The notes under the pieces were generated by a model, which saw nothing but the letters and a program-made list of their open reading frames with translations, searched no databases and was not told the DNA's origin. Positions 5,761 through 17,196 of a DNA stretch of 64,000 nt are shown in pieces. This DNA is from Phyllobacterium chamaecytisi (GTDB lineage Bacteria; Pseudomonadota; Alphaproteobacteria; Rhizobiales; Rhizobiaceae), in assembly GCF_020164455.1 (NCBI RefSeq), contig NZ_JAIQWW010000015.1, positions 110,996-174,995 of the forward strand, in the 5' to 3' direction. Made by a program: the position numbers and the translations under genes. Position 1 is the stretch's first letter. Each line of letters begins with the position of its first letter.

Positions 5761-6152
5761 GACACACCTCCAGCTGATTGTGCATCCCTCGTGCAAGATG
5801 TTTTCACCTCGTCACGGCCGTACGGAATGCTTTTCATGGAGAATACCGCTGCCATTCACGCGGCACCATTTAGGAGAAGTGAGAAGCAGTTCCTCCTGAA
5901 GGATGAGCCCCGCTGTGTCCCTTTGGACTAATAGAATCGCGCGTATAAAGGGCTATTCTGGGTAAATTGGGTACTGATAGGCCACCATCGTTACTCCGTG
6001 TCACGGTCGCGTCACGTTTGGTTACATAGCCTTGCTGATCCGCAAGTATTAGCAGCATAAAACAGAATTGAAGTGGCCTTTCAGAAACTCCTTTCGAAAT
6101 AAGATAAGTACAAGGGGAATACTTCTTTCACCAGGTGGCGTAGGGTATGAAC
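5761..6152. promoter_or_regulatory. Divergent intergenic region with GTCACG direct repeat
   Basis: 392 bp between the WecA-like gene (minus) and the first LuxR gene (plus), with no credible gene. It should hold both promoters. Positions 6000-6016 read GTCACG-GTCGC-GTCACG, two identical hexamers 11 bp apart, about 136 bp upstream of luxR1. The same arrangement lies upstream of the second LuxR gene. The tract 6040-6120 is AT-rich. GGCGTAGGG at 6138-6145, just before the start codon, is also shared with the paralogue. The regulatory role is inferred from this conservation. Confidence 0.5.
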
Positions 6153-6935
6153 ATGAGTGTAACAGTTGCGCGTATGGGAACTGACCTTATTCAGCAAGGA
6201 TCCCCGGTTGATGGCGGATCGAAATTCCGTGGCGGCATATTTATTCATGCCGAAGCGGGAGTTGTTTTCCAGGGGTTGATGCAATCTCTCGAAAGAACCT
6301 TTCCTGATATTCAGGTCAGCCTCTCGAATAACGTTGGGGACACGGGCACACCCGATCCCAATGTAGGCCTCGTGCTGCTTCACGCCGACTTTGCTTCCGA
6401 CGTGGTCGACTGCATTGCCCGTTGCAAAATGCGTTTCCCGAATGCATCCGTTACGCTGATGATCGATGAGAACAGTCCTTCCACACAGGAACTCACCGGT
6501 CTTTTTGACAGCAAGACAATCCAGGGGCTTCTGCCCTTCAGCTTGAAACTTGATGTTTGGCTTGCGGTCGTCTGGCTACTGCTTAATGGGGGCGATTACT
6601 ATCCCTCCACCATCATCCGTTCGATGGAAAAGTCACCCAGCGCGTCTGGTAAGGTACCGCAGCTCTACAATCAGCCAGATAATGCTTCCAACCGGGCATG
6701 GCCCGTCAAAACGCTGACATTGCGTGAACACGAGATCCTGCAGCTTTTATCGGAAGGCCTGCAGAACAAGATCATTGCAGACCGCCTGACGCTCTCCATC
6801 CACACGGTCAAGGTTCATGTGCATAATCTGATCCGCAAGTTGCGCGCGCACAACCGCACGCAAGCGACGGCGATCTATCGCAACAGCATGAACCATCATG
6901 GAATGAAACCCTTCGACACGACAGTTGTGCACTAG
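6153..6935 (+). CDS. LuxR-type regulator with pseudo-receiver domain (paralogue 1)
   Basis: DNA-binding regulator of 260 residues. The N-terminal 135 residues look like a response-regulator receiver fold (GGIFIHAEAGVVFQGLMQSL, DPNVGLVLLHADF, SVTLMIDENS, IQGLLPFSLKLDVWLAV). The position expected for the phospho-accepting Asp after beta-3 appears to be His (VLLH), and the beta-5 Lys appears to be replaced, so classic phosphorelay is unlikely. The LuxR/FixJ helix-turn-helix is at about residues 185-245 (TLREHEILQLLSEGLQNKII, IHTVKVHVHNLIRKL). Start 6153 is preferred over 6147 because it gives proper spacing from AGGG and matches the paralogue's MSG/MSV start. The stop codon TAG overlaps the first two bases of a MITE-like element. 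Confidence 0.9.
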   Translation: MSVTVARMGTDLIQQGSPVDGGSKFRGGIFIHAEAGVVFQGLMQSLERTFPDIQVSLSNNVGDTGTPDPNVGLVLLHADFASDVVDCIARCKMRFPNASVTLMIDENSPSTQELTGLFDSKTIQGLLPFSLKLDVWLAVVWLLLNGGDYYPSTIIRSMEKSPSASGKVPQLYNQPDNASNRAWPVKTLTLREHEILQLLSEGLQNKIIADRLTLSIHTVKVHVHNLIRKLRAHNRTQATAIYRNSMNHHGMKPFDTTVVH

Positions 6936-7542: not shown

Positions 7543-7958
7543 AGCCCCATTGGAAATGGATCAGCAGCCATCATGACTATTGCATGACAGTGCTTCCATT
7601 CTCTTATATTTCTCCACGTGAATTTCTCTTGTGTATAGCTTTTTGAATATTGTGATCTGTAGTATTTTAGTGACTCAATCGAATTTATTATTTACTAATC
7701 AATTCTCTTTGGAATGACCGCAGCCATGGCCGCGTGAGGAAGGAAATTGACGGCAAAGTCTCGAGTTTCAGCGCTTTATCGGGTCATTGCGCTTGCCATG
7801 AGGAATGCCTTAATCCATAGTTATTAGACTTTATGCTAATACTCCCTCTAGTGAACTATTTGAAGCTATAGTAGAGTTAATGGCAAGACAGAACGGCATT
7901 AATCGATTGACAGGGCTACGTATACAGAAAATCAAATAAAATCCGGGGTTTAGGCGGA
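7543..7958. promoter_or_regulatory. AT-rich region upstream of the SARP-type gene
   Basis: 416 bp without a credible gene, clearly more AT-rich than its surroundings (especially 7590-7700 and 7800-7945). It should contain the promoter for the SARP-type gene and possibly for the downstream peptide genes. I found no long inverted repeat. The low GC fits recently acquired DNA or a silencer-bound promoter, but that is inference. Confidence 0.4.
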
Positions 7959-9983
7959 ATGAAGCTGGCGGTTTTTGGAGAGGCAACTGTTAGTCTGGGC
8001 GGGCAACTCGTCCCGCGCGTACCTGCGAATTTTCTTCGCATAATCGTCTATTTGCTTCTCGAGAGTCCCAATCATTCTGTTTCCCGCGGAAAGCTTTCTC
8101 AAGTTTTCTGGTCCGATACGGATCAGGCCCATGCTTCCATGAATTTGCGCCAGAGCCTGGCGCGCATCCGCAAATTTCAGGAACAGTACGGCCTCAACCT
8201 TGTTCAGGGCGACGCCACATATGTCTATCTTAACCTGTCGCAGGTGAGGGCTGACCTGCTCAGCATCGATCTCCTTGAATATCTGGAGTTTGCGCAGTTG
8301 GGTGACATAGAATCTGTCCTTAGCCTTGCCGGTCTTTATTCAGGCGACCTGCTCGCACACAACGAACCGCAGAACTCCGATTTCGATGAATGGCTGGATG
8401 TCCAGCGCGTCAAGCTGCGTGATGATCTGATCACGACACTCTTGAGGATGGTCAACCAGCCGGTTGGGGTCAGCATCGATGAAAAACGCCAATGCGCCCG
8501 CAAGCTGATCGAGATCGATCCCTATCAGGAGGTCGGCTATCGCACTTTGATGCAAACGGCATCGCAACTAGGTCTGATAGCCAAGGTCGAACGCACATTC
8601 CGCGAATGCGCCAAGAAGCTCCGTGACGACCTCGATGTCGATCCGGAAGAAGAAACGATCGAGCTCTACCAGAAACTGCTACCCAAGCTTTCACCAGCGA
8701 CAACGCGAACCCTTATCCTGCCGCAGCCGACTGCTCCGCTCGTCGGTAATGGTGTGGAAATCCAGACCCCGCAATCGATCCTGGCGACGACCCAGATCGA
8801 GCAGAACAAAAGGGCTGGCCTGCCGCGAGTCATGGTCCTTTATATGCCGCACAATGCAGCGGATCCGATGGAGCAGCTTGCAGCCTCGCTGGTAGACGAT
8901 ATCACCATCGGGCTTTGCCGCCTGCGTACACTCTCGGTTGTCGCGCCCTATACCTCGAAGAGGGTCGTCTCCGAATCTCCTATTGACAGTTTCGAAGGGC
9001 TGAATGCGCAATTCGGAGTCAACTATGCCGTCGACAGCAAGATCGTGCGGCGCGACGGTTTCTGTTTCCTGTCGGTGAAATTGGTGGATGTTGCTACGCA
9101 GGAAATCGTCTGGGCCGAAAAGCAGAAGTTCGATTATGTCCTCCCCGAGCAGCAATATCGCCAGCTGTCGATCCGCATCATACTCTCCGTCGTTTCGGTC
9201 ATCGAGAAATCTGAACTCGACCGCTACAACAAGCTTTACCAGGATCCGAATGCTTACTACTGGTATCTCATCGGCAAGAGGGAAATAGACAAGTTCGACC
9301 TTCCAAAATTGCATCAATCGCGCCAGGCGTTCAAGAATGCCCTGACGGCTTCGCCAGATTTCGTGCCCGCCCTGAGTGGTATCGCGCGCACGATGCAAAA
9401 GGAATGGTTGATGCGTGCTCGAAGCGAGAAGGATATCCTGCTTGAGGGTGAGCAGATCGCCAAGCGTGCCGCACCAGCCGACCCGGATGATGAACGGCCT
9501 CTGCGCGAACTTGGCACCATCAGCATGTATCTTGGTAAATTCGATGACAGTCTCGAATATTTCGACCAAGGCGAGTCCATTAATCCGCAGCATGCCGATC
9601 TCCTTGCCGACTATGCTGATGCACTTAACCACTACGGCTATCTCGAGCTTTCATTTGAGAAGATTGAGCAGGCCATCGCTTTGAATCCGTTAGCCCCTGA
9701 CTACTATTATTGGGTAGGCGCGGGCACACTTCACGACCTCGATCGGTATTCTGAGGCAATCGACTTTATACAGCGCATGCAGAACCCGCGCGTTGCTGCG
9801 CGTCCTATGGCAGCCTGCTGGGCCATGCTTGGCGAAAAAGAGAAAGCGTTTGAATGCAGAGATCAAGCACTAGAGGACAATCCAAACTTTAGAATTGATG
9901 ACTGGATTAAGGGCATGTGCCTGAGGGTCCCGGAACAGCGTCAGAAATACGAAGACTCGCTCCGGGAAGCAGGTTTTCAATAA
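7959..9983 (+). CDS. SARP/BTAD-type transcriptional regulator with TPR C-terminus
   Basis: 674-residue one-component regulator. Residues 1-95 form an OmpR-like winged helix (SRGKLSQVFWSDTDQAHASM, NLRQSLARIRKF) and about 100-245 a bacterial transcriptional activator domain (DLLSIDLLEYLEF, RKLIEIDPYQEVGYRTLM, LDVDPEEETIELYQKLLPKL). About 285-400 resembles the TolB-like segment of adenylate-cyclase/CadC-type regulators (RVMVLYMPHNAADPMEQLA). About 415-660 holds TPR-like repeats (FKNALTASPDFVPALSGIAR, FDQGESINPQHADLLADYAD). Start ATG follows GGCGGA. It lies 37 bp upstream of the first peptide gene on the same strand, so it may be co-transcribed with, or activate, the putative RiPP locus. The ligand is unknown. 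Confidence 0.85.
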   Translation: MKLAVFGEATVSLGGQLVPRVPANFLRIIVYLLLESPNHSVSRGKLSQVFWSDTDQAHASMNLRQSLARIRKFQEQYGLNLVQGDATYVYLNLSQVRADLLSIDLLEYLEFAQLGDIESVLSLAGLYSGDLLAHNEPQNSDFDEWLDVQRVKLRDDLITTLLRMVNQPVGVSIDEKRQCARKLIEIDPYQEVGYRTLMQTASQLGLIAKVERTFRECAKKLRDDLDVDPEEETIELYQKLLPKLSPATTRTLILPQPTAPLVGNGVEIQTPQSILATTQIEQNKRAGLPRVMVLYMPHNAADPMEQLAASLVDDITIGLCRLRTLSVVAPYTSKRVVSESPIDSFEGLNAQFGVNYAVDSKIVRRDGFCFLSVKLVDVATQEIVWAEKQKFDYVLPEQQYRQLSIRIILSVVSVIEKSELDRYNKLYQDPNAYYWYLIGKREIDKFDLPKLHQSRQAFKNALTASPDFVPALSGIARTMQKEWLMRARSEKDILLEGEQIAKRAAPADPDDERPLRELGTISMYLGKFDDSLEYFDQGESINPQHADLLADYADALNHYGYLELSFEKIEQAIALNPLAPDYYYWVGAGTLHDLDRYSEAIDFIQRMQNPRVAARPMAACWAMLGEKEKAFECRDQALEDNPNFRIDDWIKGMCLRVPEQRQKYEDSLREAGFQ

Positions 9984-10020
9984 TCAGCAACATTCGAACT
10001 TCAAGTAAAGGGACCATACT

Positions 10021-10263
10021 ATGGCGAAATATTTTATCCTCGGCGAAGCCGGGCAGGCTGAGCTTTGGCTGGTTGACGTGGAAAATGGAACAGTTGCGCC
10101 GGCGGCCGGGGCGGGCGACGCTGGTTTGATCAAGGTCATTGAGACCGCAAGACAGCAAGGATTAACGACCATAAAAGGTGTGGATGTTGCGATTGCAACC
10201 AATAACAGATCCGATAGCGCAACGAAATCGCATATTGTTGATCCAACCCCAGTTAACAAGTAA
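10021..10263 (+). CDS. Putative RiPP precursor, short form (80 aa)
   Basis: Small protein with a good ribosome site (AAAGGGA). Its first 28 residues align without gaps with those of the next gene: MA-[YF]-[FY]-I, then LWLVD-x-E-x-x-T-[VI]-x-P. The C-terminus holds one segment, RSDSATKSHIVDPTPVNK (residues 63-80), that resembles a single degenerate copy of the repeat in the next gene (RSDATGRAHSSG) at almost the same distance from the N-terminus (residue 63 against 61). It has no cysteine and no signal peptide. I read it as a leader plus one core, but no database family was recognised and the function is inferred from the YcaO-TfuA genes downstream. Confidence 0.75.
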   Translation: MAKYFILGEAGQAELWLVDVENGTVAPAAGAGDAGLIKVIETARQQGLTTIKGVDVAIATNNRSDSATKSHIVDPTPVNK

Positions 10264-10368
10264 GTTAAATTTGCAGAAAAAGGGGTCGTTTTCATACTTC
10301 TTCTTGATCTAAAATAGAATCGTCATACGTTCGCCATGTGGGCTCTCCTTCATAGAAAGGTTATTCGC

Positions 10369-11022
10369 ATGGCAACGTTTTACATCATGAATGATCCAGA
10401 AACGAACACGCTTTGGCTCGTTGACTCTGAAACTCAAACGATCGAGCCTCTCGATCGTGATTTAATCGCCTCTTCCGGACTGGCTGGCAGTGAATTCATT
10501 GATTCGATTGCCAATCGACCCGGAAATATCTTTGCTGCCGATGCAAGCCGGAGTGACGCTACTGGTCGCGCTCATTCTAGCGGTATGGTAATGACGGCGG
10601 GCAGGCGGAATGATCCGTCGGACCGTGCGCATTTCTTTGGCCCTGCGTCGAAAGAAGCAGATATCGTCGTAACAGTGAACGCACGGGATGAAACATCTGA
10701 TCGTGCTCACTCGAGCAGTCCGGTTGTGGCCACTGGGTATCGCAGCAATCCATCGGAGCGCGCGCATTCTGCCGGTCCGGTTGTGGCCACTGGGTATCGC
10801 AGCGATCCATCGGAGCGTGCGCATTCTGCCGGTCCGGTTGTGGACAGCGTGTACCGCAGCAATCCGTCGGAGCGTGCGCATTCCGCCGGTCCGGTTGTGG
10901 ACAGCGCGTATCGTAGCAATCCATCGGAGCGTGCGCATTCCGCTGGTCCGGTTGTGGCCAGTGGGTACCGCAGCAATCCGTCGGAACGGGCGCATTCCGC
11001 TGGGCCCGCGGCAATAAACTAA
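10369..11022 (+). CDS. Putative multi-core RiPP precursor with eight 19-residue repeats (217 aa)
   Basis: Residues 1-60 form a leader-like region homologous to the upstream 80-residue protein (TLWLVDSETQTIEPL). From residue 61 eight repeats follow, starting at residues 61, 80, 106, 125, 144, 163, 182 and 201. Spacing is 19 residues except for a 7-residue insertion after repeat 2. Consensus RSNPSERAHSAGPVV plus four variable residues ending in Tyr. All eight units contain R-A-H, and seven contain RAHS. The protein has no Cys, is rich in Ser, Arg, His, Gly and Pro, and lacks a signal peptide or membrane helix. The ATG at 10369 has AGAAAGG eight bases upstream; a frame opening at 10336 lacks a site. 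YcaO and TfuA genes follow directly. Alternative: a repetitive structural protein unrelated to RiPPs. Confidence 0.82.
   Translation: MATFYIMNDPETNTLWLVDSETQTIEPLDRDLIASSGLAGSEFIDSIANRPGNIFAADASRSDATGRAHSSGMVMTAGRRNDPSDRAHFFGPASKEADIVVTVNARDETSDRAHSSSPVVATGYRSNPSERAHSAGPVVATGYRSDPSERAHSAGPVVDSVYRSNPSERAHSAGPVVDSAYRSNPSERAHSAGPVVASGYRSNPSERAHSAGPAAIN
10549..11019 (+). repeat. 57-bp coding tandem repeats in the precursor gene
   Basis: Eight in-frame units starting at 10549, 10606, 10684, 10741, 10798, 10855, 10912 and 10969; the last is a partial 51 bp. Units 4-8 (10741-11019) differ from one another at only a few bases. Units 1-3 are degenerate and unit 2 carries a 21-bp insertion. This gradient suggests recent amplification at the 3' end by unequal recombination or slippage. 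The repeats are translated, contiguous and lack spacers, so this is not a CRISPR array. Confidence 0.92.
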
Positions 11023-11098
11023 ACACAGTTGCAAGCGCGTTATCCAGCATTTGGATAGTTTGCAATAAATGCGTGCTTTGCGGCCTGATGGAGTGGCA

Positions 11099-12355
11099 AT
11101 GAAACCATTGGCCGAGATTCCGGTTCTCGACCGGCTGGCGGCAGACGAAGCGAACCTTCGTTCTGCTTTCCGCCCGGGAGAATTGTCATCGACAAGACTG
11201 ATCGATGCGGACGAAACCGTTGGCCGGTTGCGGCCGCACTTTCCTCGTTTGGGCATCGTCCGGATGGCCGAGGTGACCGGCCTCGACCGGATCGGCATTC
11301 CCGTGTGGATGGCCGTGCGCCCCAACAGCCGGACATTGGCTGTCAGCCAGGGCAAAGGCATCAGCGCCGCCCATGCCCGCGCTTCCGCTGTGATGGAGGC
11401 CGCCGAAATCGCCATTGCCGAAGATATTCCACTCGCTTCTTTTGCCGCCAGTCGCCGCGAGCTGCGCGACGCCGGCCACGATGTATTTGACGGGCGCATG
11501 CTGCTGATGCGTGGCGCGGACGAGGCCGGAGCCGATGAGAACGATTATTGGCTCGAAGGCTTCGACCTTTTGAAACAAAAGCCGGTTTTTGTGCCGCGCG
11601 AACTCGTTTCGCTCGATTTCACCTCGGCACGGCAGTCCTGGCATTATTGCCAGTCAACCGATGGCCTTGCCTCGGGCAATTGCCTGTTGGAAGCGGTTAT
11701 TCATGGATTGTGCGAGCGTGTCGAACGCGATGCGACTGAGTTATGGCGCTTTCAACGCGACGCCGGTGTGCAGGCGCATTGCGTCGATCCGGCGGTTTTC
11801 GGCGATAGCGGCATTGACTGGCTGGCCGAGCGGATCGCTGCGGCAAACTTCGTCTTGCGGCTGTTCAACGTGACGTCGGATATCGGACTGCCCGTTTTCA
11901 TGGCGACGATCAGCCCGGCGACACAGCATGGCACTTATCTGCATTTCGATCTCGCCGCTGGTTACGGTTGCCATTTGTCGCCGTGCGTTGCAGCTATGCG
12001 GGCTATAACCGAGGCAGCCCAGACACGAATCACCAATATTTCCGGTGCACGCGATGATTTCGACCCCTCCGAATATGCGCAGCGCCTTGCGCCGGATCTC
12101 GGCGTCTACATCCACGCCGAACCGGCCGACCATTGGCGGTTTGACGAGCCGGAACCTGCGGATCGAGCCAGCCTCGAAACTTATCTCGAACCCTTGCGCC
12201 GGCGCGGTATCGGCAGCGTCGTTGTCGTTCCAATGGGCGGCGAGGATTACGGGATGTCAGTCTGCCGTGTTTTGGTCAACGAGCTGGAAAGCCCGGCCGG
12301 TATCCGCAAGCATCGCTTTGGCGGGCGTGCGCTCAACGCCATGCTTCGGCAATAG
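11099..12355 (+). CDS. YcaO-domain protein (ATP-dependent backbone-modifying enzyme)
   Basis: 418-residue YcaO enzyme. The family activates a peptide-backbone amide with ATP to give azolines, thioamides or amidines. Expected motifs are GKGISAAHARASAVMEAAE near residues 90-110, STDGLASGNCLLEAVIHGLC with ERVERDA near 190-220, and RAITEAAQTRITNISGARDD near 300-320, which together supply the ATP/Mg2+ carboxylates. No E1-like or ocin-ThiF-like partner domain is fused and the C-terminus is not Pro-rich. The ATG at 11099 has GGAG five bases upstream; an ATG at 11069 lacks a site. It starts 76 bp after the repeat-precursor gene and 9 bp before tfuA, so the three are probably one operon. Confidence 0.93.
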   Translation: MKPLAEIPVLDRLAADEANLRSAFRPGELSSTRLIDADETVGRLRPHFPRLGIVRMAEVTGLDRIGIPVWMAVRPNSRTLAVSQGKGISAAHARASAVMEAAEIAIAEDIPLASFAASRRELRDAGHDVFDGRMLLMRGADEAGADENDYWLEGFDLLKQKPVFVPRELVSLDFTSARQSWHYCQSTDGLASGNCLLEAVIHGLCERVERDATELWRFQRDAGVQAHCVDPAVFGDSGIDWLAERIAAANFVLRLFNVTSDIGLPVFMATISPATQHGTYLHFDLAAGYGCHLSPCVAAMRAITEAAQTRITNISGARDDFDPSEYAQRLAPDLGVYIHAEPADHWRFDEPEPADRASLETYLEPLRRRGIGSVVVVPMGGEDYGMSVCRVLVNELESPAGIRKHRFGGRALNAMLRQ

Positions 12356-12364
12356 GAGAGGGCG

Positions 12365-13105
12365 ATGAAGATCCTGTTTGCGGGCCCAAGCCTTTCTGGA
12401 ACTGAATTTGTACCTGTGCGAGGCGGTGAAGACCGCGTGCTGCCGGAATATGGGTTGACCTGCCGCGGCCCCGCCAAATGTGGTGATATCACCCATGCGG
12501 TAGATCAGGGCTTCCGCGTCATCGCACTGGTCGACGGGCGGTTCGAAGATGTTGCCGCGGTCTGGCACAAGGAAATTCTCTACGCGCTGTCACGCGGAGC
12601 CACTGTTTACGGCGCGGCCAGCATGGGCGCCCTACGCGCCGCCGAGTGCCATCCGTTTGGCATGATCGGCATCGGCGAAGTGTTCGAGCGCTATGCCTTT
12701 GGCGGCCTGGAAGATGATGCCGCCGTCGCGCAGGTTCATGCGCCCGCCGACTTCGGCTATGTCGCCTTCAGCGAAGCCATGGTGACCATCGACGCAACGC
12801 TCGATGCGGCGCTCGCCGCCGGAACAATCACCGCCGGGGAATACACTCTCGTTCGCGCGCGCGCCGATGCCGTATTTTTCAAAGAACGGACCTGGCGGCG
12901 TGTATTCGAGGTTGTCTCGTCCGAGATTGACCGCGCGGCTGAACGATTGAAACCACATATCCGCAATATCAAGCGTGAAGACGCCTCGATGCTGCTCGAC
13001 GTTCTTCTGGAGCGTAAAAGCGCTACCCCGGTCAGAGAGCTGCGGCCTGATTTCGTCGGATGGCAATTCAACGAAACCACGCAATGGAGCAAGCTTCGGG
13101 TTTGA
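12365..13105 (+). CDS. tfuA: TfuA-like protein, YcaO partner
   Basis: 246-residue TfuA-like protein. TfuA was first found as a factor needed for production of trifolitoxin in Rhizobium, and TfuA proteins partner YcaO in thioamidation (McrA thioglycine, thiovarsolins). Family signatures are present: MKILFAGPSLSG at the start, ALVDGRFEDVAAVWHKEILY near residues 55-75, GATVYGAASMGALRAAEC near 80-97 and GEVFERYAFGGLEDDAAVA near 105-125. The ATG follows GGAGAG and lies 9 bp after ycaO. The role in sulfur transfer or substrate presentation here is inferred from the family. Confidence 0.92.
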   Translation: MKILFAGPSLSGTEFVPVRGGEDRVLPEYGLTCRGPAKCGDITHAVDQGFRVIALVDGRFEDVAAVWHKEILYALSRGATVYGAASMGALRAAECHPFGMIGIGEVFERYAFGGLEDDAAVAQVHAPADFGYVAFSEAMVTIDATLDAALAAGTITAGEYTLVRARADAVFFKERTWRRVFEVVSSEIDRAAERLKPHIRNIKREDASMLLDVLLERKSATPVRELRPDFVGWQFNETTQWSKLRV

Positions 13106-13308
13106 ACCTATTGATTATTTCGTCCTGATTGCGCCTAACCCCAATTAATTACCGGACTTCTTGAAAAAACACCCAAAAAAGGCATTTGAGTCACGCTTGC
13201 GTAACGCTGTGAAACATAATCTCATCCCATGGTCGCAAGTTTAACGCATGAAAACAAAACAAAAAAGCATTCAAGCGTGTGGGAGCAAGCGGGCAGTCAG
13301 TGGGGGAC

Positions 13309-13362
13309 CTACGCCGGAATTCTAAATATTATATAAACAGTAAACTCAGAATTTCGGCGTAG
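13309..13362. repeat. Inverted repeat, 15-bp arms
   Basis: Arms ctacgccggaattct (13309-13323) and its complement at 13348-13362, with one mismatch, enclose a 24-base AT-rich loop that includes tattatata. It could be an RNA hairpin or a regulator-binding site. It lies about 70 bp before a plus-strand terminator. Confidence 0.6.
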
Positions 13363-13430
13363 CACTGGTCAAGTTGGGGGTTTAGTTACAAAATAAAGTT
13401 CAGAAAACGACAGGTGAAAGCCACGCATTG

Positions 13431-13455
13431 CGCGCCCCCTCCAGGGCGCGTTTTT
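13431..13455 (+). terminator. Rho-independent terminator (plus strand)
   Basis: A 7-bp GC stem (cgcgccc at 13431-13437 with gggcgcg at 13444-13450) and a 6-base loop are followed by TTTTTCTTT. No plus-strand gene ends nearby except tfuA 325 bp upstream. It therefore ends either a long tfuA transcript or an unrecognised RNA. Confidence 0.75.
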
Positions 13456-13492
13456 CTTTGTTGGTACCTTGCTCAAAATTTCTAGCAGAGTG

Positions 13493-13756
13493 TTATTCTG
13501 CGCCCCCCGACCGTTCGGTGTCATCGTCGCTTTCGTCATCATCATCGTCGGCGGCAAGCCATTGATCGAGAATTGCGACGGACATCGGGCCGAGATTGGG
13601 AATCAGCGTCAGGTCAAGCTGTCGCGCCCACGCACGCTCGGGCTCCCAATCTGGCGGCATGTTCCATGGGGTTCCGCCAAACTCGATCCACAGCGCATTC
13701 ACGATGCGTGAATGCACTGTCTTTGAGGGGCAGAATGTCTGCAGGCGATTTCGCAT
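13493..13756 (-). CDS. Small acidic-tailed protein with HhH-like segment (87 aa)
   Basis: The segment TLIPNLGPMSVAILDQWLA resembles a helix-hairpin-helix of the RNA-polymerase-alpha C-terminal type. A tail very rich in Asp/Glu (AADDDDDESDDDTE) follows. The ATG at 13756 is preceded by AAGGG at proper spacing; the frame continues to 13966 but that part looks non-coding. It runs toward tfuA from the opposite strand. Function unknown; binding of nucleic acid or polymerase is a guess from the HhH-like pattern. Confidence 0.6.
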   Translation of the reverse strand: MRNRLQTFCPSKTVHSRIVNALWIEFGGTPWNMPPDWEPERAWARQLDLTLIPNLGPMSVAILDQWLAADDDDDESDDDTERSGGAE

Positions 13757-14808: not shown

Positions 14809-15621
14809 TTATACGGCCCGGGCCATCTCAAGCGAGCCGTCCACGCGACCCATCCCCGTACCGTACGCTTTAAAAGGGGGCTGGTACGCCTCCTGGTCCA
14901 TGCTGTTCCGGTATACCGCTGCAGCTTGGGTGCGATTGTGAACCCGCAGCTTGCGGATAAGATTATGCACATGAACCTTGACGGTGTGTTCGGAGAGCGA
15001 CAGCCGATCCGCAATGATCTTGTTCTGCAGACCTTCCGAGAGAAGCTCCAGGATCTGAGTTTCGCGGAGTGTCAGCGTCTTGATCTGCTTGACGACACCG
15101 GAACTATTTTTTCCTTGGTTGCCGAAAGCATTCGCGTGACCGCCGGCCGAGTTCTTCTCGATTGAACGTATGATAGCCGAAGGATAGTACTCACCGCCAT
15201 TCAGCAGCAGCCAGATTACGGCCAGCCAGATATCGAGTTTGAGACTGAAAGGGAGAAGTCCCTGGACCTGTCGGTTGTCGAACAAGCTGTTCAACTCTTG
15301 TAGGCCGGCGCTGTTTTCATCGATCATCATTGTGATCGAGGCGCTGGGAAAGCGCTTTTTGAAACGTGTAATGCACTCGGCTACATCGGCGACGAAGCCG
15401 CTGTGAATAAGCACGAGACCAACATCTTCATCAAACTTTTCGAATTCGACGAATTTGCTGGAAAGGTTAACATCGATATCGGGAAATGTTCTTTCCAGGG
15501 ATTGAACCAGGCCCTGAAATACCACTCCCGATTCGGCATAGATGAATATGCCACTTTTGAATTTTGAGTCGCCCTCAATCTTCGATGCATAATGAATATG
15601 GTCAGGTGTTGTTCCACTCAT
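14809..15621 (-). CDS. LuxR-type regulator with pseudo-receiver domain (paralogue 2)
   Basis: 270-residue paralogue of the regulator at 6153-6935. It shares KFKSGIFIYAESGVVFQGL, SLERTFPDI, LLPFSLKLDIWLAVIWLLL and a nearly identical helix-turn-helix (TLRETQILELLSEGLQNKII, EHTVKVHVHNLIRKL). As in the paralogue, the expected phospho-Asp site reads VLIH, so phosphorylation is doubtful. Its C-terminal tail (MDQEAYQPPFKAYGTGMGR and about 11 more residues) is longer than in paralogue 1, whose end is cut by a MITE-like element. GGCGTAGGG precedes the start in both genes. The two regulators flank the putative RiPP operon in inverted orientation. Confidence 0.9.
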   Translation of the reverse strand: MSGTTPDHIHYASKIEGDSKFKSGIFIYAESGVVFQGLVQSLERTFPDIDVNLSSKFVEFEKFDEDVGLVLIHSGFVADVAECITRFKKRFPSASITMMIDENSAGLQELNSLFDNRQVQGLLPFSLKLDIWLAVIWLLLNGGEYYPSAIIRSIEKNSAGGHANAFGNQGKNSSGVVKQIKTLTLRETQILELLSEGLQNKIIADRLSLSEHTVKVHVHNLIRKLRVHNRTQAAAVYRNSMDQEAYQPPFKAYGTGMGRVDGSLEMARAV

Positions 15622-16331: not shown

Positions 16332-17196
16332 CAATGGCGATCCATCGGCATCGGCGCCAACGAACTGGAAATGATGGAGAGAAACATTTCGGCGCTTGAG
16401 TTTCGCCGAATTGGGCGCAACGCCCAGATTGATGCCACCAAGACTCAGGTCGACCTCCTGAAAAATGAGTGCAAGGCAAAATATTCGCTGTTCAAAAAGG
16501 GTCTGATGGCCCGCTCGGAGGTGAGCGTGCTCGAGCGTGCCGTCGCGGATGGAATAGGCACCATGGCGCGGCTTGATGCCGAGATCATGGAAGTCAACGC
16601 CCAGATCGAGAAATTTCAAAAGGAAATGATCCAGACCAAGGAAGCAGGCGGCGCTCGATGAAATTCAAAGCGCAGAAGCCGAGCTCGACACGATACGCGA
16701 ACAGACGCGGCAAGCCGCCAGCGTTTTGGACCGCACGGTAGTCAAGGCGCCCGTATCCGGAACGGTGATCCGACTATATTACCACACGTCTGGCGGCGTT
16801 ATCGAAACCGGCAAACCGATCGTCGAGATCCTGCCCACAGGTGTCCCGTTAATCATCGAAGCGCAGATTCCTCGCATGCAGATCGATGAGGTAAAGGAAG
16901 GGCAGGAAGCTCACGTGCGATTAAGTGGGCTAAACCAGCGCACGACCCCGATCATCAATGGGCGTGTCGACTACGTGTCGGCCGATTCCATGGCAGATAC
17001 GACGAGCGCGCAGAAACAGGACATCTATCTTGCGCGCATCAGCATCCCAGCCAACGAACTCGCCCGCATTCGTGGCTTTACCCCGACACCGGGCATGCCC
17101 GCGGATATTCTTATTCAAACGCATGAGCGCACATTCTTCGAATACCTGGCCAAGCCGGTTATCGACAGCATGTCACGGGCGTTCCGGGAGTACTGA
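16332..17196 (+). pseudogene. HlyD/PrsE-type membrane-fusion protein, truncated and frameshifted
   Basis: Remnant of a type I secretion periplasmic adaptor. The coiled-coil hairpin is readable at 16332-16661 (NELEMMERNISALEFRRIG, KNECKAKYSLFKKGLMARS). Around 16640-16650 the frame shifts. The second frame then gives QAALDEIQSAEAELDTIREQ, the lipoyl/beta-barrel core VVKAPVSGTVIRLYYHTSGG, and the PrsE-like C-terminus (PGMPADILIQTHERTFFEYL) to a stop at 17196. The N-terminal membrane segment and the first half of the family's usual 430 residues are missing. No ABC-transporter partner is present. It is the only export component near the putative RiPP operon. Confidence 0.85.

Follow-up and report, generated by a model that had tools for sequence, protein, structure and literature searches.

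The question raised by this locus of Phyllobacterium chamaecytisi is what an adjacent pair of ycaO and tfuA genes acts upon, and whether the two small genes in front of the pair, here called A and B, encode its substrates. The genes lie in a window (the whole stretch analysed) of 64,000 nucleotides (nt), positions 110,996 to 174,995 of contig NZ_JAIQWW010000015.1 (assembly GCF_020164455.1), in a genome of 6.36 Mb. We consider it likely that A and B are the precursors of a thioamidated ribosomally synthesized and post-translationally modified peptide (RiPP), in which YcaO and TfuA would swap oxygen for sulfur once per core and peptidases encoded elsewhere would release the cores. The initial annotation of the window had proposed a YcaO-TfuA RiPP locus with a multi-core precursor; comparison of sequences supports this reading and extends it in two respects, in that gene A would itself be a one-core precursor beside the multi-core B, and in that a SARP/TPR regulator gene upstream belongs to the unit of precursor, ycaO and tfuA. 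The features, numbered from the first letter of the window, are as follows.

7821..7879, + strand: promoter-like block before the regulator gene (alignment of 18 loci; putative role)
7959..9983, + strand: SARP-type regulator with a BTAD domain and C-terminal TPRs (PF03704, E 2.6e-10; TPR matches)
10021..10263, + strand: gene A (80 aa), in which a single core (RSDSATKSHIVDP) follows the leader; in 18 of 20 Phyllobacterium genomes, its own included
10369..11022, + strand: gene B (217 aa), in which eight core units follow the leader (open reading frame, unit search, homologues)
10549..10722, + strand: part of B with three diverged core units, 19 and 26 aa from start to start
10741..11019, + strand: part of B with five near-identical core units, 57-nt period
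11099..12355, + strand: YcaO, predicted ATP-dependent backbone-activating enzyme (PF02624, E 1.9e-60)
12365..13105, + strand: TfuA, predicted sulfide-delivering partner (PF07812, E 6.3e-40)

The four genes annotated at first (A, B, ycaO and tfuA) are indeed all open on the + strand, and the gaps in the order SARP-A-B-ycaO-tfuA measure 37, 105, 76 and 9 nt. The open reading frames (ORFs) of ycaO and B open at 11069 and 10336, with homology to relatives only from the ATG at 11099 and from 10369, respectively. Two of the elements expected of a YcaO-TfuA RiPP locus are present: ycaO and tfuA are adjacent, and beside them stands a short candidate precursor made of a leader and a C-terminal core.

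Candidate precursors and their core

As originally described, the N-termini of A and B are homologous (BLASTP E 1e-06 over 76 columns), and their first ~60 aa constitute a leader family. Behind the leader of B follows a 13-residue core, R-S-[DN]-P-S-[ED]-R-A-x-S-x-x-x, in tandem and in one to eight copies across 18 loci of the genus, and A ends in one core in the same register. The units of the window's B are RSxPSERAHSAGP-like; eight R...[ST][EDG]RAH units were found, compared with at most one in any of 2000 residue shuffles, which rules out a chance tandem repeat. Eight repeats of 19 residues had been claimed, and the number holds, the period being only nearly right because one spacing is 26 aa beside six of 19 aa. 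At the DNA level the last five units repeat almost identically every 57 nt. Neither A nor B of the window contains Cys, in agreement with the first description, and a Cys beyond residue 60 occurs in 3 of 18 related B proteins. The B proteins of the genus loci are 74 to 217 aa long and hold 87 units altogether; in four genomes B has a single unit, in others as many as eight. The opening Arg of the core is invariant in 26 of 26 rows of A and B, and conserved positions outside the rule used to search for units are Ser10 (79/87), Ala8 (73/87) and Pro4 (65/87), Ser5 (80/87) being partly imposed by that rule.

When pairs of the window's last five repeats are compared, the codon differences add up to 41 synonymous to 4 nonsynonymous in the core, and 6 to 32 in the spacer; with the last unit left out, the spacer of which is the C-terminal tail, they are 16 to 3 and 6 to 12, respectively (repeat pairs are not independent of each other in this comparison). 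Since changes are mostly synonymous in the core and mostly nonsynonymous in the spacer, the contrast points to selection acting on the predicted core peptide. Repeat number is unequal even among close relatives (8, 7, 7, 8, 7 and 6 units in loci L036-L041), and the array is therefore evolving fast.

The leader family is nameless in Pfam and NCBIfam, and no curated family covers it: none of 40 leader rows matched any family of either collection at 0.01, and the curated model of Nif11-type leaders, a class to which the family might have belonged, was likewise matched by 0/40. Among the 120 of 183 relatives listed, the names given are hypothetical or uncharacterized, with a single stray exception. 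We found no description of this precursor family in the part of the open-access literature consulted, subscription papers and supplements lying outside that search. B also gave a weak match to Potexvirus coat protein (E 0.0045), which stays under the cut-off of that family and was judged spurious.

Occurrence of the unit within and beyond the genus

Within Phyllobacterium, the order SARP-A-B-ycaO-tfuA is kept in all 18 loci, which come from 18 of 20 genomes, and the two genomes without ycaO (G011 and G012) also lack gene A. Neighbouring ORFs were clustered for these 18 loci (ORFs of at least 90 aa) and for 64 leader loci of named YcaO relatives described below (at least 100 aa), with families named by eye; the only families present in 18/18 genus loci are SARP, A/B, YcaO and TfuA. 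The initial annotation had regarded its reading as refuted should homologues of the repeat protein commonly be found away from ycaO and tfuA, and B adjoins both genes in 18/18 genus loci. One exception was seen, in P. zundukense (L172, NZ_CP104972.1 941700-952035, and L033), which carries an intact unit plus a decayed second copy on a plasmid; this copy has a shortened BTAD gene and a B homologue beside a ycaO remnant with stops. This second copy, together with the two genomes devoid of the unit, is what one would cite for the locus being a decaying or unexpressed remnant; against this, the five genes of the window are open, their order is constant and codon changes in the core are mostly synonymous, and we regard a remnant as extremely improbable. 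Phyllobacterium phragmitis (L108) differs in carrying, in place of this unit, a Rhizobium-type locus with one core.

Outside the genus, the leader and not the repeats was used to assess co-occurrence with TfuA. A family search with the leader profile gave matches in 36 of 394 Rhizobiaceae genomes, including 8 from the genus, and of the 29 places found outside it 22 loci were inspected: a SARP homologue precedes the leader in 22/22 and ycaO lies in the flank of 19/22. A broader leader profile of 40 rows was run against 199 Rhizobiaceae genomes, genus included. This yielded 39 leader matches in 34 genomes and 73 matches to PF07812 (TfuA) in 59, and 34 of the 39 leader matches lie within 5 kb of TfuA. 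TfuA occurs in 34/34 genomes with a leader versus 25/165 others (Fisher p 1.2e-22, which ignores relatedness).

Starting from the enzyme, 80 named YcaO relatives were retained out of 570, and a leader was found at 64 of these 80, the profile having been seeded from these same loci. In these searches 75 of 77 leader ORFs (81 of 83 domain matches) start on the same strand at most 1.3 kb upstream of ycaO, and tfuA lies right behind ycaO in 58 of the 64 loci. Since many rhizobia thus have relatives of A and B next to this enzyme pair, A and B are likely precursors. Among the 16 named relatives that have no leader, 11 are also without a same-strand tfuA in the stretch examined, and two (L099 and L147) end at a contig edge just before ycaO. 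The YcaO relatives at L104, L105, L109, L111, L119, L120, L133, L136 and L159 lack both leader and tfuA nearby, and each has a helix-turn-helix gene just upstream; as a similar gene also stands directly before SARP in 16 of the 64 leader loci, the picture is that of a loss or gain of SARP and leader between the two. At L112 and L160, which have SARP, ycaO and tfuA, short ORFs upstream of ycaO miss the leader profile and look alike by eye, possibly representing a further precursor type.

The precursor family is wider in scope than the multi-core gene described at first, extending over Rhizobiaceae and some other Alphaproteobacteria and being mostly single-core. Single-core members are mostly ~70 aa long and often end like SGHFDG or GGFMDG, and multi-core forms occur in an Afifellaceae metagenome-assembled genome (MAG; RSDAASHHYFPNRG, eight copies), in a Siculibacillus MAG (RSEPAAHILYG, eight copies), in Shinella (GGYMDAD-like, two to three copies), in Rhizobium (AFSGxxY-like, up to five copies) and in others. 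A quick tree of 81 YcaOs places the Phyllobacterium enzymes together with those of L096-L099, L112, L116, L142 and L160 (100% SH-aLRT), and the single- or multi-core state, scored by eye, changes at least 8 times on this tree, in which 23 of 78 inner branches are weak. As judged from these comparisons, this is a real, conserved and widespread family of putative precursors for YcaO-TfuA enzymes, with recurrent core amplification.

The enzymes and the predicted modification

The closest named relatives of the window's YcaO are from Phyllobacterium (P. trifolii at 98%). Both enzymes resemble the YcaO-TfuA pair that forms McrA thioglycine in methanogens, which provides their best NCBIfam models and best solved relatives: the nearest solved chain to YcaO by sequence is MJ1094 (6pe3, E 2.5e-24), and the solved protein that TfuA resembles is 6xp8, which has a TfuA domain (E 2.5e-24). 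The substrate of the McrA pair is a large enzyme, unlike the candidate precursors of the window. Residues invariant in 14 YcaO rows include E100, E103, N194, E198, E206, E209, R210 and Q308, which we take to be the ATP/Mg site. The genome also encodes two ThiS-family carriers, which are common anyway (11 of 14 controls).

According to the parts of the reports available to us, YcaO-TfuA pairs install thioamides in thiovarsolin (PMC6511847) and McrA (PMC5589413), and a thiocarboxylated ThiS homologue delivers sulfide, with TfuA as hydrolase (PMC13063428). Given these precedents, the likeness of both enzymes and the two ThiS-family proteins, one thioamide per core is predicted. YcaO would O-phosphorylate the amide at the expense of ATP and TfuA would pass on sulfide from a ThiS-type carrier, as the enzyme families suggest, so that a backbone amide oxygen would be exchanged for sulfur once per 13-residue core, our guess for the modified bond being the [ED]-R-A stretch. 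Peptidases encoded elsewhere would then free the single core of A and as many as eight cores of B.

The same precursors might instead acquire an oxazoline or methyloxazoline at a conserved Ser by loss of water. The high conservation of Ser10 and Ser5 noted above would suit such a product, as would a YcaO match to the SagD model, at 109.6 of 219.25 bits under its cut-off. The conserved partner, however, is TfuA, and among the recurrent ORF families of the 18 genus and 64 named loci we recognised by eye no E1-like or ocin-ThiF partner of the kind that marks linear azol(in)e peptides, no profile search having been aimed at them; as no such azoline partner was recognised, thioamide is favoured over oxazoline. 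Many single-core relatives, moreover, end in SGHxDG or GGFMDG, so that Ser is not always kept. On balance we hold an oxazoline to be highly unlikely.

A model for a thioamidated product is the thiovarsolin cluster (varA/varY/varT) of Streptomyces varsoviensis, which likewise combines YcaO and TfuA with a leader and repeated cores, and of which varA, varY and varT suffice for thiovarsolin B, no specific protease being present in the cluster as far as the accessible part of the report goes (PMC6511847). By this precedent, a repeated-core precursor together with a single YcaO and a single TfuA can suffice, the remaining steps plausibly falling to host peptidases, and the best reading of the sequences is that the locus would work like VarA with another leader and core. 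In VarA-type precursors the imperfect core repeats vary from none to five (PMC6511847). The thiovarsolin core, APR or GPR, carries a Pro-Arg thioamide (same source), whereas B of the window holds neither tripeptide; the repeating core of that family is found here and its [AG]PR core is not, so that by its core the locus is not a member of the thiovarsolin family. Further differences, VarA having been compared without a sequence alignment, are the two precursor genes and the SARP/TPR regulator found here.

Closer by host are TfuA-YcaO clusters of Rhizobium and Agrobacterium, which share the enzyme pair and of which more than 500 were counted in Rhizobium by antiSMASH and RiPPER; the accessible part of that report names berninamycin-like and Nif11-like precursors in Rhizobium, notes that some Sinorhizobium clusters have a heme-oxygenase-like gene, and describes ABC transporters and glycosyltransferases as common (PMC8120280). 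The words Phyllobacter, repeat and SARP do not occur in its main text, and an overlap of its supplement with our single-core members is possible. As of 2021 all known YcaO-TfuA products came from outside Rhizobium according to the same source. With the predicted family many rhizobial YcaO-TfuA clusters gain a common precursor type, whose leader can be recognised, whose core is defined and whose members form a natural series from one to eight cores, and if A and B are precursors, a peptide product of rhizobia can now be sought. Questions opened by the family concern the products of plant-associated bacteria, the bond modified without Cys and the reason for repeated core amplification. Trifolitoxin is likewise rhizobial and reportedly involves tfuA (tfx plus tfuA, Rhizobium). 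Its precursor contains Cys and no repeats.

Several observations weigh against a thioamidated, released core. The enzymes score under the NCBIfam equivalog cut-offs for McrA thioamidation (TIGR03266 and NF033432; YcaO 190.6 of 365 bits, TfuA 157.6 of 235.2 bits). An AlphaFold model of residues 1-77 of A, with three strands plus helices and an unstructured tail, is of low confidence (pLDDT 66.6, pTM 0.44). Three of the 22 outside loci inspected have no ycaO in a 1.5-kb flank, and 5 of the 39 leader matches have no TfuA within 5 kb, two being SARP-leader-ycaO and three SARP-leader arrangements; since a leader is missing near 42 of the 73 TfuA matches, there are also other TfuA loci. All five leader exceptions sit in genomes with TfuA elsewhere. 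The three SARP-leader pairs without ycaO or tfuA nearby are the orphans L164, L165 and L166, for which the enzymes may act in trans. Finally, a search of the clustered ORFs of the 18 genus and 64 named loci for a protease, an exporter or another tailoring enzyme belonging to the unit revealed none in a constant position, and ABC-transporter-like ORFs, present in 19 of the 64, are scattered over both strands.

The lack of a protease or exporter at a fixed place would also suit A and B remaining uncleaved, the modified repeat protein being the working product, for example an intracellular protein that binds a metal or a partner. YcaO enzymes do modify whole proteins, namely McrA (PMC5589413) and uL16 (PMC13063428). 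In the genus, however, the leader stays single while the core count varies from 1 to 8, at periods of 13, 19 or 24 aa, as expected of a core that is released, and the thiovarsolin cluster is likewise without a specific protease. An uncleaved product is thus unlikely in our judgement, and release of the cores is the reading that we prefer.

Regulator, promoter-like block and neighbouring genes

The SARP regulator gene lies directly upstream of A in 18/18 genus loci and upstream on the same strand in 58 of the 64 named leader loci, and its product would presumably turn the operon on. In the open-access literature searched, BTAD and YcaO occur together in one paper, in which BTAD stands only inside DOIs. 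A further reading, which we consider a rather doubtful speculation, is a Gram-negative peptide-signalling circuit, in which sulfur-modified, protease-resistant core peptides would be bound by the TPR domain of SARP and the operon would activate itself. It is suggested by the regulator staying with the precursor where the enzymes are missing (3 of 39 leader matches have SARP and neither ycaO nor tfuA nearby) and by rhizobial lineages having repeatedly raised the number of would-be signal copies per precursor. The Firmicute RRNPP regulators are the counterpart of such a circuit, the signal of which would here be backbone-modified.

The promoter-like block before the regulator gene consists of TTAGAC, 17 nt, T[AC]TAGT and two CTATAG-like repeats ~20 nt apart. 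In an alignment of 260 nt upstream it is kept in most of the 18 loci, with variable flanks, L048 and L050 deviating. A 14-nt part of it occurs once in the genome at no more than one mismatch (two occurrences for the reversed control), which would fit the control of one operon. A scan of 9800-13600 gave no excess of promoter-like (2 versus 2.0 expected) or terminator-like (3 versus 5.3) elements, and the five proteins of the locus had no match in PADLOC.

Other neighbours in the genus vary: sugar-polymer-type genes lie upstream in 8 of the 18 loci and downstream in 6, and LuxR-type regulators are found in 11, within 16 kb. The window itself has one LuxR-type regulator on each side of the unit (6147-6935, + strand, and 14809-15621, - strand); the two are inverted relative to each other and share 65% identity. 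Further downstream, a gene of HlyD-type membrane-fusion proteins is apparently split into two open pieces on the + strand, 16371-16661 and 16726-17196, the second of which matches PF13437.

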